Shown: positions 29,288 to 34,102, counted from the stretch's first letter. The stretch is 64,000 bases of DNA from Nocardioides donggukensis (GCF_014842875.1 NZ_JACYXZ010000002.1:744001-808000); one strand, 5' to 3'. Notes: generated by a model not told the origin, from the letters alone. Numbers and translations are program-made.

Positions 29288-30529
29288 ATGTCTCACACCA
29301 GCGTCGTCGTCACCGGACTCGGGACGACCTCCCCTGTCGGAGGCGACGTACCCACCACGTGGGCCGCCCTGCTGGACGGCCGTTCCGGCGTCGCCCCGCT
29401 CGAGCACGAGTGGGCCGAGCAGCTCGGCACCCGGATCGCCGGCGAGGTCGCCGTCGAGCCCGGTGACGTCCTGGACCGGGTCAAGGCCCGGCGCCTGGAC
29501 CGGTCCGGCCAGCTGGCGATGGTGGCGGCGCTGGAGGCGTGGGCCGACGCGGGTCTGAACGCGGACGACGCCGACGTCGATCCCGAGCGCCTCGCCGTGG
29601 CGATGGCCTCGGGCATCGGCGGCGTCACCACGCTGCTGTCGAACTACGACAGCCTCAAGGAGAAGGGGCCGCGGCGGGTCTCCCCCCTCGCGATCCCGAT
29701 GCTGATGCCCAACGGGCCGGCCGCGGCGATCGGGCTGGCGCTGGGCGCCAAGGCCGGCGTGCACACCCCGGTGTCGGCGTGCGCCTCCGGCAACGAGTCG
29801 ATCTCGCTCGGCATCGACATGATCCGGCTCGGCCGGGCGGACGTGGTCGTCGTCGGCGGCACCGAGGCCGCGGTGCACCCGCTGCCGATCGCCGCCTTCG
29901 GGCAGATGATGGCGCTCTCCAAGCGCAACGACGAGCCCGAGCGTGCCTCCCGCCCCTGGGACAAGGGCCGCGACGGCTTCGTCCTCGGTGAGGGTGCCGC
30001 CGTGCTGGTCCTCGAGTCCGCCGAGCACGCCGCAGCCCGCGGCGCGCGGGTGTACGCCGAGGCCGCCGGTGCCGGCATCACCGCCGACTCCCACGACATC
30101 GCCCAGCCCGACCCGGCCGGCCTGGGGGCCACCCGGGCGATGAGGATGGCGCTGCGCGAGTCCGGTCTCGAGGCCGGCGACATCGTGCACGTGAACGCGC
30201 ACGCCACCTCGACCCCGCAGGGCGACCTGGCCGAGGCCGGGGCGATCCGCAACGCGCTCGGCGCCGCCGCGGACCGGGTGATCCTCACCTCGACCAAGTC
30301 GATGACCGGGCACCTGCTCGGCGCCGCCGGCGCGCTGGAGTCCCTGGCCACCGTGCTCGCCCTGCACCACCGGGTGGTGCCGCCGACCATCAACCTCGAG
30401 GACCCCGAGGACATCGGCTTCGAGGTCCCCGAGAAGTCCCGCGAGCTGCCCGCCGGCGACCTGGCCGCGCTGAACAACTCGTTCGGCTTCGGCGGTCACA
30501 ACGTGGCCCTCGCGTTCCGGACCGTCTGA
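29288..30529 (+). CDS. fabF: beta-ketoacyl-ACP synthase II
   Basis: 413 residues. Elongating condensing enzyme of FAS II. Active site Cys in PVSACASGNES (about 165), and the two His in VNAHATSTPQGD and KSMTGHLLGAAGALE; C-terminal GFGGHN. Preceded by GAAGGAA and 23 bp after acpP, completing fabD-fabH-acpP-fabF. The reductases fabG and fabI and the dehydratase are not in this cluster, as in Streptomyces. The transcript probably ends before the 51-bp palindromic array. Confidence 0.96.
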   Translation: MSHTSVVVTGLGTTSPVGGDVPTTWAALLDGRSGVAPLEHEWAEQLGTRIAGEVAVEPGDVLDRVKARRLDRSGQLAMVAALEAWADAGLNADDADVDPERLAVAMASGIGGVTTLLSNYDSLKEKGPRRVSPLAIPMLMPNGPAAAIGLALGAKAGVHTPVSACASGNESISLGIDMIRLGRADVVVVGGTEAAVHPLPIAAFGQMMALSKRNDEPERASRPWDKGRDGFVLGEGAAVLVLESAEHAAARGARVYAEAAGAGITADSHDIAQPDPAGLGATRAMRMALRESGLEAGDIVHVNAHATSTPQGDLAEAGAIRNALGAAADRVILTSTKSMTGHLLGAAGALESLATVLALHHRVVPPTINLEDPEDIGFEVPEKSRELPAGDLAALNNSFGFGGHNVALAFRTV

Positions 30530-30575
30530 CCCCGGCCCCACGGCGTACCCGCGGCTCGTCCGCGGTGACCAAAGA

Positions 30576-30742
30576 GCCGCAATTGCGGCCGTTTGACATG
30601 ATCTCGCGCTGATTCACTGTCGAACGGCCGCAATTGCGGCTCTTCGGCGCGTTCCGGGAGAGCCGATGTGTCACAACGGCGCAATTGCGGCCGTTGGACA
30701 TGTTCTCGGGCCGAATCTCTGTCACAGGGCCGCAATTGCGGC
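30576..30742. repeat. four-copy palindromic array with exact 51-bp period
   Basis: The 14-bp palindrome GCCGCAATTGCGGC begins at 30576, 30627 and 30729; a copy with a one-base change begins at 30678 (core GCAATTGC 30681-30688). All starts are 51 bp apart. The sequences between copies 1-2 and 3-4 resemble each other (TTGACATGATCTCGCGCTGA against TTGGACATGTTCTCGGGCCG), and those after copies 2 and 4 also do, giving a 102-bp higher-order unit. The array fills the gap between the convergent fabF and sucrase/ferredoxin-like genes. Confidence 0.9.
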
Positions 30743-30755
30743 CGTACGGCGCGGG

Positions 30756-31658
30756 TCAGGCGAGCCGACGGATGCCCAGCACCTGATGGTCCGGAGCGGT
30801 GTTCTCCCGCTGGGCGCCGCAGGTGAGCAGGTGCTCGCCGGAGCCGGGGACGGTGCGGATCCGGACCTCCCAGCGTCCGTCGGGGGCCTCGAAGTCGGCC
30901 ACCAGGTCGGCACCGGTACGACGGCGGGTGAGCGGCCGCACGGCCCCCGACCGGGTCTCGCCGAGCTCCCGCCGCAGCGCGATCTCGGCCGCCTGCACGG
31001 CCATGGGGATGCCGGACCGGCCGCGGAGGTGGTCCAGGTCGAGCTCCCCGGCGAGAGTGGCGTCCGCCAGTGACGGGGCCTGCTGGGGGTCGATCCGCCC
31101 GTAGTAGAGCCCGTCCGGGAGCACCAGCAGGTTGGCGGCGAACCGGTCGCCGCCGATGTGCGAGCACTCCCAGGTCTCCTCGGGGTGCGACTCGCACAGG
31201 GCCGCGGCGACCGGTCGGCCGCGCTCGGCGCAGCACACGTCGTGCCGGCCGTGCGTGCACACGCACAGCAGCGGGCCGTCGGCGGGCTCCAGCCCGGGCG
31301 ACCTGCCGGCGCCGAGGGCGGCCAGGTCCAGGTCGAGCAGGCCCTCGGGCTCGGGGAGCAACGCCGTCTCCAGCCAGGGCGAGACCGGGTCGGCGTACGC
31401 GGCGAAGACGCGGCACCCGTCCACCGCCGCCCCGCGCCGGGCGTGACGCCGGATCAGCAGGACCCGGACGCCGGCGGCCCGCGCGGCCCGGGTCAGCCCG
31501 GAGCGCACCCGCTCGGGCAGCCGGCTGTCCCGGAGCGCGTCGACGCCCCAGGGGCCGGGATTCTCGACCAGGAGGAACGCCCGGACGGTGGAGGCGGTGC
31601 CCGTGAGCGGCTCGTCGCGGTCGAGGCTGGCGCCCGCGCACCGGAACGCTGCGCTCAC
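30756..31658 (-). CDS. sucrase/ferredoxin-like (thioredoxin-fold) protein
   Basis: 300 residues from GTG 31658, overlapping the cupin gene stop (GTGA). The family is named for similarity to 2Fe-2S thioredoxin-like ferredoxins. Visible motifs are CAGASLDRDEPLTGTAS near the N-terminus, the Cys-rich LLCVCTHGRHDVCCAERGRPVA (about 165-185) and WECSHIGGDRFAANLLVLPDGLYYG (about 200-225), which may ligand an Fe-S cluster. A C-terminal domain of about 60 residues follows. No enzyme activity is established; an electron-transfer role for the neighbouring oxygenase is an inference. Confidence 0.8.
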   Translation of the reverse strand: MSAAFRCAGASLDRDEPLTGTASTVRAFLLVENPGPWGVDALRDSRLPERVRSGLTRAARAAGVRVLLIRRHARRGAAVDGCRVFAAYADPVSPWLETALLPEPEGLLDLDLAALGAGRSPGLEPADGPLLCVCTHGRHDVCCAERGRPVAAALCESHPEETWECSHIGGDRFAANLLVLPDGLYYGRIDPQQAPSLADATLAGELDLDHLRGRSGIPMAVQAAEIALRRELGETRSGAVRPLTRRRTGADLVADFEAPDGRWEVRIRTVPGSGEHLLTCGAQRENTAPDHQVLGIRRLA

Positions 31659-32776
31659 CCGACCACCTCGAGCAGCCCCTCGCGCACGAGGCGGCGGCAC
31701 AGCACGAGCCGGCTCTGCTCGTCCAGCGGCAGGTCTCCGGGGCGCAGCGTCGGGTCGGCGCGCACCCGCTCCAGGGCGGGGCGGAGCCAGCCGGGTACGG
31801 CGAGCTGGCGGTCGCCGAGCAGCACCCGCACCCGGTCCCCGTCGTCCACGAGGACGCAGGGATGCCCGGGCCGACGGCGCAGCAGGCTGTCGTCGCTCAG
31901 GGTCCGCACGGCGAGGACGTCCTTCAGCCCGCCCCGCTGCCGGGTCGGCCGCTCGGTGAGGAACCGCTCGCTCTCGGCCCGGGCCGCGGCGGGTACGTCG
32001 ACGGCCCGGACGGCGTCGGCGAGCGCCTGCAGGCGGTCGGCCAGGCCCTCGGTGAGCAGGTCGGGTTCGTCGGGGTAGCCGGCCGGCAGGTGCCCGTCGT
32101 CAACGGCGTCGACGACCTGGCGGAGGGTGCGCTGCACCAGACCCTTCCAGGTGCGCTGGTTGATGCCGATGGTGACGTGCAGCGACGCCGTGTCCTGCGT
32201 CCGGGCGGCGTGCGGCGTGCCGGTCGGCAGGTACATGCTCAGCCCGGGCTCGAGCAGCACGCTCTCCGCGCCGTCCTCGCCGTGCACCTCCCACAGCTTC
32301 GTGCCGTGGGTCTGGAAGACGAACACGTCGTGGCCGTCGGAGTGCACCGCGAAGCCCTGCGACCCGGGCGGGGTGAGGTAGGCGTTGGCCTGGCACGGGT
32401 GTCCGAGCTCGGCCTCCAGCTCCGCGACCAGGTCGGTCAGGGGCTGCCAGTACCGGTGCAGCCCCTGGAGCACGATCGTGCCGCCCTGCTCGAAGAGCTC
32501 CAGGGCCCGGCGGGCGTCGACGAGACCGGTCAGCGGCCGGCCGGCGAGGGTGGCGCCGCGACGGGTGTAGGCGGACTCCGCGAGCACCGAGCCGTCCCTG
32601 GCCACCCGGATCGCGGGGGTGCGCAGCGCGGTCGAGGTGAGCAGGTGGTCGACGTCGTCGAGCGAGAGCAGCGCCGTGAGCCGCGACGGGTCCGTGCGGT
32701 GCTGGTGCACGCGTGACGCCCAGACCTTCGTCACGAAGGTCTGGGCGTCACCGCTGAGCAGGTCGAGAGCGGTCAG
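31655..32776 (-). CDS. JmjC/cupin-4 Fe(II) oxygenase with probable CTG start
   Basis: 373 residues if read from CTG 32776 (TALDLLSGDAQTFVTKVWAS after the initiator). The family's opening xALDLLxGDxxxF is upstream of the first conventional codon (GTG 32734), and GGAG lies seven bases before the CTG, which overlaps the previous stop as CTGA. The JmjC core has HSDGHDVFVFQTHGTKLWEV with the HxD iron ligands, the LEPGLSMYLPTGTPHAART second His region, and TIGINQRTW. Related enzymes (ribosomal oxygenases, YcfD) hydroxylate Arg or His in proteins using 2-oxoglutarate. A winged-helix-like C-terminal part follows. Confidence 0.82.
   Translation of the reverse strand: MTALDLLSGDAQTFVTKVWASRVHQHRTDPSRLTALLSLDDVDHLLTSTALRTPAIRVARDGSVLAESAYTRRGATLAGRPLTGLVDARRALELFEQGGTIVLQGLHRYWQPLTDLVAELEAELGHPCQANAYLTPPGSQGFAVHSDGHDVFVFQTHGTKLWEVHGEDGAESVLLEPGLSMYLPTGTPHAARTQDTASLHVTIGINQRTWKGLVQRTLRQVVDAVDDGHLPAGYPDEPDLLTEGLADRLQALADAVRAVDVPAAARAESERFLTERPTRQRGGLKDVLAVRTLSDDSLLRRRPGHPCVLVDDGDRVRVLLGDRQLAVPGWLRPALERVRADPTLRPGDLPLDEQSRLVLCRRLVREGLLEVVG
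32713..32751. repeat. 39-nt perfect palindrome inside the start of the oxygenase gene
   Basis: Arms GTGACGCCCAGACCTTCGT (32713-32731) and its exact complement (32733-32751) around a single base. In the mRNA this is an 18-bp stem with loop UGA, about 25 nt after the CTG start. It encodes part of GDAQTFVTKVWAS. No T-tract follows. Confidence 0.9.
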
Positions 32777-33108
32777 CGTGCCGCTCCGTCGGTGCCGTCG
32801 GCGTCCGCGTCACTGGCGTCCGCGTCCGCGTCGCTGGCGTCGGCATCCGCGTCACTGGCATCGGCATCCGCGTCACTGGCGTCGGCATCCGCGTCACTGG
32901 CGTCGGCGTCCGCGTCGCTGGCGTCGGCGTCCGCGTCGCTGGCGTCGCTGTCGGTGGTGTCGCCGTCCGCCACGTCGGTGGCGTCCCCGTCGGTGCCGTC
33001 CGCGTCGGTGCCGTCCGCGTCCGTGGAGTCGACCGGCCCGGGGCCGCCGGCCCCGGCGGTGGTGGTCATATCGTCGTCGCTCAGCGGTGAGTCGGGCGTG
33101 TTGGTCAT
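32773..33108 (-). CDS. acidic heptad-repeat peptide (SDADADA repeats)
   Basis: 111 residues; ATG 33108 follows a strong GGAGG site, so it is very likely translated. Residues 1-27 form a non-repetitive leader-like region (TPDSPLSDDDM, then a Gly/Pro stretch). Next comes a TDADGTDADGTDGDATD segment resembling Ca-binding Asp repeats, then SDA, six perfect SDADADA units and one SDADADG, ending TDGAAR. No signal peptide or membrane segment. The stop overlaps the CTG start of the oxygenase. It may be a disordered acidic protein, or a substrate modified by that oxygenase (inference). Confidence 0.75.
   Translation of the reverse strand: MTNTPDSPLSDDDMTTTAGAGGPGPVDSTDADGTDADGTDGDATDVADGDTTDSDASDADADASDADADASDADADASDADADASDADADASDADADASDADADGTDGAAR
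32797..32948. repeat. 21-bp tandem repeats encoding the SDADADA heptads
   Basis: Seven CTGG-containing units at exact 21-bp spacing (CTGG at 32813 through 32939). Copies differ mainly at third codon positions (GCGTC/GCATC, TCACTGG/TCGCTGG), so the repeat has been kept at protein level while DNA drifted. Confidence 0.9.
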
Positions 33109-33189
33109 CGAGGCCTCCTGTGCGGCACGGCGGACCCTCCGCCGTCGTCCTCAGACCGTACCCAGCGGGTCAACGCGCAAGCACCCCGC

Positions 33190-33195
33190 TAGCCT
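33190..33195 (+). promoter_or_regulatory. -10-like hexamer TAGCCT before the crotonase gene
   Basis: TAGCCT, then CGCTCGC, then ATG 33203. No ribosome site is present, so translation is probably from a leaderless mRNA. Confidence 0.4.
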
Positions 33196-33202
33196 CGCTC
33201 GC

Positions 33203-34102
33203 ATGCGCTCCGAGACCCCCAGCCCGCAGAGGCCCGACTACCAGACCATCCGCTACGAGGTCGCCGACGGCATCCTCACCCTGACCCTGGACCGACCGGA
33301 TGCCCTGAACGCGTTCACCGTCGAGATGGCCGACGAGCTCGAGGACGCGTTCGAGCGGGCCAGCCTGGAGGACGAGGTCCGGGCGATCGTCGTCACCGGC
33401 GCCGGGCGCGCGTTCTGCGCCGGGATGGACCTCTCGGCCGAGGGCAACGTCTTCGGTCTCGACGAGTCGCTCAACCCGACGATGGAGGACATGAGCGACC
33501 GGATCGACGATCCCGAGATCCACCGCGGGGTCCGCGACACCGGCGGACGGGTGACGCTGGCGATCTTCAACTGCCTCAAGCCGGTCATCGGCGCCGTGAA
33601 CGGTCCGGCGGTCGGGATCGGGGCGACGATGCTCTGCGCAATGGACGTGCGGATGGCCTCGGAGAAGGCCAGGGTGGGCTTCGTCTTCGGCCGGATCGGG
33701 ATCACCCCGGAGGCGGCCTCGACCTGGTTCCTGCCCCGGATCGTGGGCATCTCCCGGGCGCTCGAGTGGGTCTACTCGGCCGACGTCCTCACCGCGGACG
33801 AGGCACGGGAGGGCGGTTTCGTGCGCTCGGTCCACCCCGACGACGAGCTGCTGGACGAGGCCTACGCGCTGGCCAGGAAGTTCACCGCGAACCGCTCCCC
33901 CGTGGGTACGGCGCTCGCACGGCACATGATGTACCGCAACTCCGCGCAGCACCATCCGCTGGAGGCCCACCGGGTCGACTCGCTGGCGATGTTCTGGACC
34001 AGCGTCGGCGACGGCAAGGAGGGCGTGGCCGCCTTCCGGGACAAGCGCGACCCGGAGTTCACCGGCAAGGCCTCGGAGATGCCTCCGTTCTTTCCCTGGT
34101 AG
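33203..34102 (+). CDS. enoyl-CoA hydratase/isomerase family protein
   Basis: 299 residues from ATG 33203. Crotonase fold: LTLTLDRPDALNAFTVEM, the oxyanion-hole VVTGAGRAFCAGMDLS and FNCLKPVIGAVNGPAVGIGATMLCAMDVRMASEKARVGFVFGRIGITPEAASTWFLPRIVG, where the usual catalytic Glu position falls in the ITPEA segment. An insertion of about 30 residues around 85-110 (NPTMEDMSDRIDDPEIHRG) is longer than in standard short-chain hydratases. Likely part of fatty acid or side-chain degradation; the exact acyl substrate is unknown. Divergent from the repeat-peptide operon. Confidence 0.88.
   Translation: MRSETPSPQRPDYQTIRYEVADGILTLTLDRPDALNAFTVEMADELEDAFERASLEDEVRAIVVTGAGRAFCAGMDLSAEGNVFGLDESLNPTMEDMSDRIDDPEIHRGVRDTGGRVTLAIFNCLKPVIGAVNGPAVGIGATMLCAMDVRMASEKARVGFVFGRIGITPEAASTWFLPRIVGISRALEWVYSADVLTADEAREGGFVRSVHPDDELLDEAYALARKFTANRSPVGTALARHMMYRNSAQHHPLEAHRVDSLAMFWTSVGDGKEGVAAFRDKRDPEFTGKASEMPPFFPW

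Follow-up and report, generated by a model that had tools for sequence, protein, structure and literature searches.

JmjC enzymes that act on ribosomal precursors are described from biphenomycin-type RiPP pathways, in which BipG and PbsQ hydroxylate Orn (PMC12707348, PMC12257519). What they would share with the locus reported here is an Fe(II)/2OG enzyme of the JmjC or cupin type hydroxylating a residue of a ribosomal precursor whose gene is close by. BipG and PbsQ target one Orn in a short core, and their genes lie next to those for an MNIO, an arginase, a B12-rSAM enzyme and a TldD protease, whereas the present system has a long Asp-repeat core and none of those partner genes. The 2025 RRE-Finder study reported RRE-like folds in JmjC PF08007 proteins and placed the nearest bacterial homologs of these in RiPP-like contexts (PMC12710340); the combination of a JmjC_2 and an RRE-like domain is also predicted here. 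The relevant passage of that paper concerns fish and algal proteins and bacterial homologs with about 30% identity, and it mentions neither a precursor family nor an Asp repeat nor a Suc_Fer partner (PMC12710340). FIH, a related oxygenase, is able to hydroxylate aspartyl residues (PMC9994133).

NO66, MINA53 and YcfD, the ribosomal oxygenases, share the JmjC fold, the HxD...H triad and a C-terminal winged-helix domain with the oxygenase studied here, but identity is low and their substrates are His or Arg residues in ribosomal proteins. We know of no coupling of these enzymes to a repeat peptide gene. Apd1-Aim32 [2Fe-2S] proteins (PF06999) share conserved Cys and an HxGG motif with the third protein of the locus, which differs in having HxGGD. 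Pfam, NCBIfam and the searchable open-access papers contained no description of the peptide family, which may be described elsewhere, and DGGADGG-type strings were found in no relevant open-access paper. A DmdR1 paper (PMC12161575) was discarded as a lead because it concerns another matter than this operon. The three-gene operon, which occurs across the actinobacterial phylum, is apparently undescribed.

An Asp-repeat peptide gene in a three-gene operon

The window, i.e., the whole stretch of 64,000 nucleotides from Nocardioides donggukensis that was analysed, contained three minus-strand genes encoding a peptide, a JmjC_2 oxygenase and a Suc_Fer-like protein. The features were as follows, all on the minus strand.

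33114–33119, minus: Shine-Dalgarno sequence AGGAGG before the peptide gene, read directly from the sequence
32773–33108, minus: Asp-repeat precursor-like peptide gene, 111 aa, read as an ORF; orthologs lie upstream of essentially all orthologous oxygenases
33058–33108, minus: candidate leader MTNTPDSPLSDDDMTTT with the conserved motif PLSDDDMTT, from leader comparison; recurs as L[ST]DEDIxT in other classes
32941–33034, minus: Asp/Thr/Gly segment DSTDADGTDADGTDGDATDVADGDTTDSDA, resembling the core of most congeners
32794–32940, minus: core of six SDADADA units and one SDADADG, from translation and TRF
31655–32776, minus: JmjC_2 oxygenase gene, 373 aa, very probably with a CTG start; PF08007, E 4.5e-18
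32210–32344, minus: iron-ligand stretch with H145, D147 and H189, from the alignment
31658–31894, minus: predicted C-terminal RRE-like winged-helix domain with R302, R361 and R362, from the structure model and clade-specific Arg
30756–31658, minus: Suc_Fer-like protein gene, 300 aa, GTG start, HxGGD motif, conserved downstream of the oxygenase; PF06999, E 2.2e-18

Adjacent genes overlapped by 4 bp at each junction. The overlaps named in the earlier note, CTGA and then GTGA, were both read in the sequence: the former joins the peptide stop to the oxygenase start, the latter the oxygenase stop to the GTG start of the Suc_Fer-like gene. The CTG at 32776 is very probably the oxygenase start codon, since no in-frame ATG, GTG or TTG precedes the conserved N-terminus (ALDLLSGDAQTF, ALDLLSGDA), six other genus loci have CTG at exactly the same position, and two loci sharing this overlap use GTG. 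The mechanical ORF start, GTG at 32734, would remove conserved oxygenase residues. CTG thus appears to be a conserved oxygenase start in at least 7 distinct genus loci, and automatic gene callers begin 14 codons late. A perfect AGGAGG was located 5 nt upstream of the peptide ATG, with similar sites before the peptide ATG in 14 genus loci.

Read from its N-terminus, the peptide consisted of MTNTPDSPLSDDDMTTT, a brief stretch of Ala, Gly and Pro, a segment of the DG[TSA]D type and the repeat units. The reported 111 residues with six perfect SDADADA units and one variant were confirmed in the ORF 33108–32773, the variant being SDADADG. TRF detected a 21-bp period with 7.2 copies at 32796–32947. 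The earlier note had also taken third-position variation among the 21-bp repeats as a sign that the protein repeat was selected. All 28 of the 28 pairwise differences among the six perfect units did fall at third codon positions, in 4 variable columns, but these units were chosen by their identical protein sequence, so that the count is partly circular and serves as a consistency check and not as an independent test. The DNA-level TRF array is a less circular support for the repeat. The genome of the strain contained no second array, other DADADA-type sites being single or one overlapping pair. The window peptide scored above cut-off for no family in Pfam or NCBIfam; three orthologous peptides had no NCBIfam match, and two of these three no Pfam match.

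Regulation of the peptide gene by iron, zinc, peroxide or copper was considered and rejected, as the IdeR, Zur, PerR and CsoR boxes upstream of it scored no better than shuffled sequence. LexA-like palindromes (CGAAC-N4-GTTCG type, 12–13 of 14 bases) were present upstream of the peptide genes of four loci (L090, L098, L102 and L009); they are confined to few loci, mostly of Geodermatophilaceae, and are not general. Nothing in Rfam matched at 30500–33600, and the genome encoded no second copy of the oxygenase or of the Suc_Fer protein. Between the Suc_Fer gene and fabF, the palindrome GCCGCAATTGCGGC was present in four copies (three perfect, one with a mismatch) with 51-bp spacing at 30576–30745. 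The same element was found at about 30 places on all five contigs, often paired about 51 bp apart, and looks like a REP/BIME-like family.

Conservation of the peptide with the oxygenase

The earlier note had counted the lack of a conserved peptide gene upstream of homologous oxygenases against its own idea; on this point the outcome was in favour of the idea. Searching 58 relatives with the oxygenase gave 32 matches; 30 loci were fetched, and an acidic repeat ORF lay just upstream of the oxygenase in all 30 of these genus and order relatives. When 84,980 genomes were scanned with a profile, 533 relatives came up, and the best 80 of these were kept. These included Kribbella, Actinokineospora, Umezawaea, Labedaea, Actinomycetospora, Pseudonocardia, Modestobacter, Blastococcus, Geodermatophilus, Micromonospora and others. 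The peptide, whole or partial, was present in 78 of the 78 testable loci among the best 80 of 533, the other two ending at a contig edge. The class was sampled evenly with 297 genomes, 99 of which had an oxygenase match. An acidic peptide was encoded upstream in 50/50 high-scoring class-level loci and contained repeats in 49/50, the single exception being an acidic peptide without repeats (L156). It was also found at 18 phylum-level orthologs from other classes. In contrast, lower-scoring outgroup JmjC_2 loci had an upstream peptide in 0/20 cases. The sample sets (genus and order, 84,980-genome scan, class and phylum) overlap, and they amount to about 150 distinct actinobacterial loci and not to their sum. 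Every JmjC ortholog with enough upstream sequence among these was preceded by a small ORF with an N-terminal motif and an Asp/Gly/Ala-rich core (that of L156 without repeats). The claim of a leader-plus-repeat peptide dedicated to the oxygenase was therefore strongly supported by its phylum-wide conservation and its absence in the outgroup.

The association was also reciprocal. With a DNA pattern for DGGADGxA, 27 of the same 297 class genomes had at least 4 same-strand matches, and 26 of these 27 carried the orthologous oxygenase (the sole exception being G249), versus roughly 60/297 overall. The DGGADGxA sites listed sit just upstream of the oxygenase, e.g., at G215:C4:319597-319763 with the oxygenase at 319867. 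The putative modifying enzyme and precursor are hence encoded together from either side, as in RiPP systems. In a 99-row tree, the peptide-linked oxygenases were placed essentially together, with two long-branched outgroup rows inside at modest support. A chance low-complexity ORF was rejected as an explanation, the conservation across loci being decisive. When loose acidic-tail criteria were applied to the 14,358 ORFs of the fetched loci, 38 passed elsewhere versus 71 at the position upstream of the oxygenase. The oxygenase itself was patchy, with about a third of the class genomes matching at all.

The N-terminal motif was usually [LP][NSD]DD[DE][MI]xT ([LP]xDDD[MI]xT), with L[ST]DEDIxT in other classes, and a minority of lineages had an atypical leader (MSQSETEGPADGG...). 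The core units varied by lineage. SDADADA occurred in the window, DGTDGD or DADGTD in congeners and other classes, and EGPADGGAxxGxxDGGADGG in Kribbella and many others, while ADGG was near-pure in one locus (L160); a locus of another class (L198) had an ASDADAADAD core like that of the window. The arrangement of a gene-encoded precursor with a conserved N-terminal leader and a variable core, typical of RiPPs, was thus found, with the atypical leader in a minority of lineages. The heptad repeat to which the earlier note drew attention is present in the window, but it is not an essential feature, as repeat length and sequence differ widely between species. Among 114 unique peptides, only D, A and G occurred in every core; Cys never occurred, and Lys, Arg and aromatic residues were rare. 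Asp is named as the probable target by elimination, because it is the only universal reactive side chain across the cores.

A diverged oxygenase relative (L210, G454:C1, around 3606769) was preceded by ITDNDITSG and two copies of PTEDDENLDAPGEHSQDTGDE, and is possibly a sister system with another core. Acidic leaders were compared with residues near the C-terminus of the oxygenase: the second Arg was present in 104/107 versus 10/17 cases and Glu in 101/107 versus 5/17. This covariation of leader and C-terminal Arg and Glu is suggestive; it comes mostly from one clade and was not counted as proof.

The oxygenase and its proposed iron-sulfur partner

The second gene product had been read as a JmjC/cupin-4 enzyme with HxD ligands, and it matched PF08007 with 65.5 bits (Pfam cut-off 22). 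Its HxD...H triad (H145, D147, H189) was invariant in 180/180 non-outgroup aligned rows, so both marks of the JmjC_2 family were present. An AlphaFold2 model of a Kribbella-type ortholog (L028; pLDDT 77.5) had NO66, MINA53 and YcfD as its nearest structures (Foldseek E 1e-24 to 1e-15, VIA Z 18–24); several NO66 alignments had an overall rmsd of about 21 Å with the domains placed differently, and these matches are to be read domain by domain. The last 97 residues of the window oxygenase, modelled alone (pLDDT 89), matched the C-terminal domain of NO66 and MINA53 best (Z 9.8–12.7). Except for YcfD, most of the next matches were solved RREs: PbtF (Z 7.9), McbB (7.7), TbiB1 (7.3), ThcOx (7.0), MccB (6.9), PqqD (6.5) and a lasso B1 protein (6.3). 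A Z below 8 alone could reflect a common arrangement, yet a run of RRE structures on such a small domain appears specific. In this model, the C-terminal fold alone is no proof of leader binding, as ribosomal oxygenases match better than RREs. R52, R302 and R362 were nearly invariant in the clade and seldom present in the outgroup, with a less sharp difference for R361, as judged against actinobacterial outgroup genes and not against NO66, MINA53 and YcfD. Basic residues on the last helix of the model are what an acidic leader would need, which is a structural argument for docking.

One outgroup JmjC_2 gene (L171, G200:C14:825478-832431) lay directly downstream of two ORFs that we take from their sequences to be TfuA-like and YcaO-like, presumably arranged as in thioamide RiPP clusters. 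This context may point, independently, to ribosomal peptides as substrates of this branch of enzymes.

The third protein, described earlier as sucrase/ferredoxin-like, was verified by its PF06999 match (67.5 bits, Pfam cut-off 34.9). Its gene was directly downstream of the oxygenase in 30/30 genus and order loci, 71/78 loci from the best 80 of 533, 41/50 class loci and nearly all phylum-level loci, versus 0/20 in the outgroup. The trio is therefore kept across the actinobacterial phylum, with Suc_Fer missing in some lineages. Because several Micromonospora and some other loci lack it downstream, Suc_Fer is likely an accessory and not the catalyst. The HxGGH motif, which we take to be the cluster-ligand motif in Apd1/Aim32, was replaced by HxGGD in 144/162 downstream system copies, and the second His is likewise absent from the window protein (HIGGDRF). 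The Suc_Fer profile was weakly similar to a thioredoxin-like [2Fe-2S] ferredoxin (E 0.07). In some species of the genus (loci L013, L015, L019, L021 and L022), the peptide gene was directly preceded by another Suc_Fer gene, whose product has HxGGH, and this form of the motif occurred in 7/7 of the upstream Suc_Fer paralogs detected.

Beyond Suc_Fer, no neighbour recurred across genera within 6 kb. The adjacent fatty-acid synthesis genes in the window are outside the conserved module, and a wider gene cluster was rejected since the other neighbours change between genera. No protease, exporter/transporter or immunity gene was conserved across genera within 6 kb; such genes could lie elsewhere. 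As no further neighbour recurs, the genes resemble a portable three-gene module and not a classical cluster with a protease and an exporter.

A RiPP-like reading and its alternatives

We consider the trio to be a RiPP-like modification operon, with a probability of roughly 70%. The first gene would encode a precursor made by the ribosome, in which a short acidic leader is followed by a repetitive core of Asp residues alternating with small ones. The second would encode an Fe(II)/2-oxoglutarate JmjC oxygenase, whose C-terminal RRE-like winged-helix domain would bind the leader, probably via arginines on the last helix and the first strand. The JmjC domain would act along the repeats and oxidise Asp side chains, most likely by beta-hydroxylation. 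The Suc_Fer-type iron-sulfur protein may keep or restore the oxygenase iron in the ferrous state, or pass electrons to a further step; the least secure part of this scheme is the proposal that it re-reduces the iron over long runs of turnover. To our knowledge, JmjC enzymes normally need no ferredoxin, which counts against this reading.

The oxygenase could instead be a ribosomal-protein hydroxylase of the NO66/MINA53/YcfD type, with the acidic peptide as a regulatory or chaperone-like partner, e.g., a pseudosubstrate or inhibitor. Its best structural and sequence matches are ribosomal oxygenases, which also have this C-terminal domain. However, the peptide is tied to this oxygenase clade only, and a freely evolving, still repetitive Asp-rich core is more in keeping with a multi-site substrate than with a folded regulator. 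The patchy distribution is also unlike that of a ribosomal maturation enzyme, and we regard this function as distinctly improbable. Oxidation of the peptide at a residue other than Asp, i.e., at Gly or Ala, or a crosslink, desaturation or cleavage, is unlikely. Gly and Ala are likewise universal in the cores, and 2OG oxygenases of RiPP pathways can go beyond hydroxylation, as indicated by a macrocyclisation paper cited as reference 45 in PMC12710340. Nevertheless, the usual JmjC reaction is side-chain hydroxylation of polar residues, and the window core (SDADADA) has little Gly and other cores have little Ala, whereas Asp is always present.

The extreme acidity and low complexity of the repeat protein would also fit a role without modification, as a calcium or cation buffer or as a DNA mimic, with the enzymes adjoining for another reason. 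DxDxDG-like patterns in some cores resemble what we take to be EF-hand loops. This explanation seems very unlikely, since the three genes stay together phylum-wide while all other neighbours change, and since it leaves the conserved leader and the RRE-like domain unexplained.

Returning to the RiPP-like operon, the observation behind the earlier note was real and its interpretation largely correct, if partly supported. A leader and repeat peptide tied to the oxygenase bears it out, but the lack of a conserved protease or exporter nearby does not. The operon behaves like a RiPP system as far as sequence can tell, and membership is not proven; the prospects for a distinct class are good if the chemistry is confirmed. 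The product is speculatively a cytosolic poly-acidic polymer that binds metal or calcium. Phylum-wide ribosomal poly-beta-hydroxyaspartyl peptides, made through multi-site Asp oxidation by a JmjC-RRE enzyme with its own iron-sulfur partner and retained in or on the cell as dense polymers that bind metal or calcium, are a tentative and rather doubtful extension.

As far as could be found, this widespread module of three genes has escaped notice, probably since its peptide is of low complexity, lacks a family model and looks like junk. Species differ in their cores, (ADGG)n and SDADADA among them, so that nature's own variants could reveal the substrate rules. If the reading is true, the module would open multi-site aspartate oxidation of a ribosomal peptide to study in a compact system that is easy to test. 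RiPP logic would then reach a ribosomal-oxygenase-like enzyme with a built-in RRE-like domain, which would support the idea that ribosomal oxygenases and RiPP enzymes are linked in evolution.
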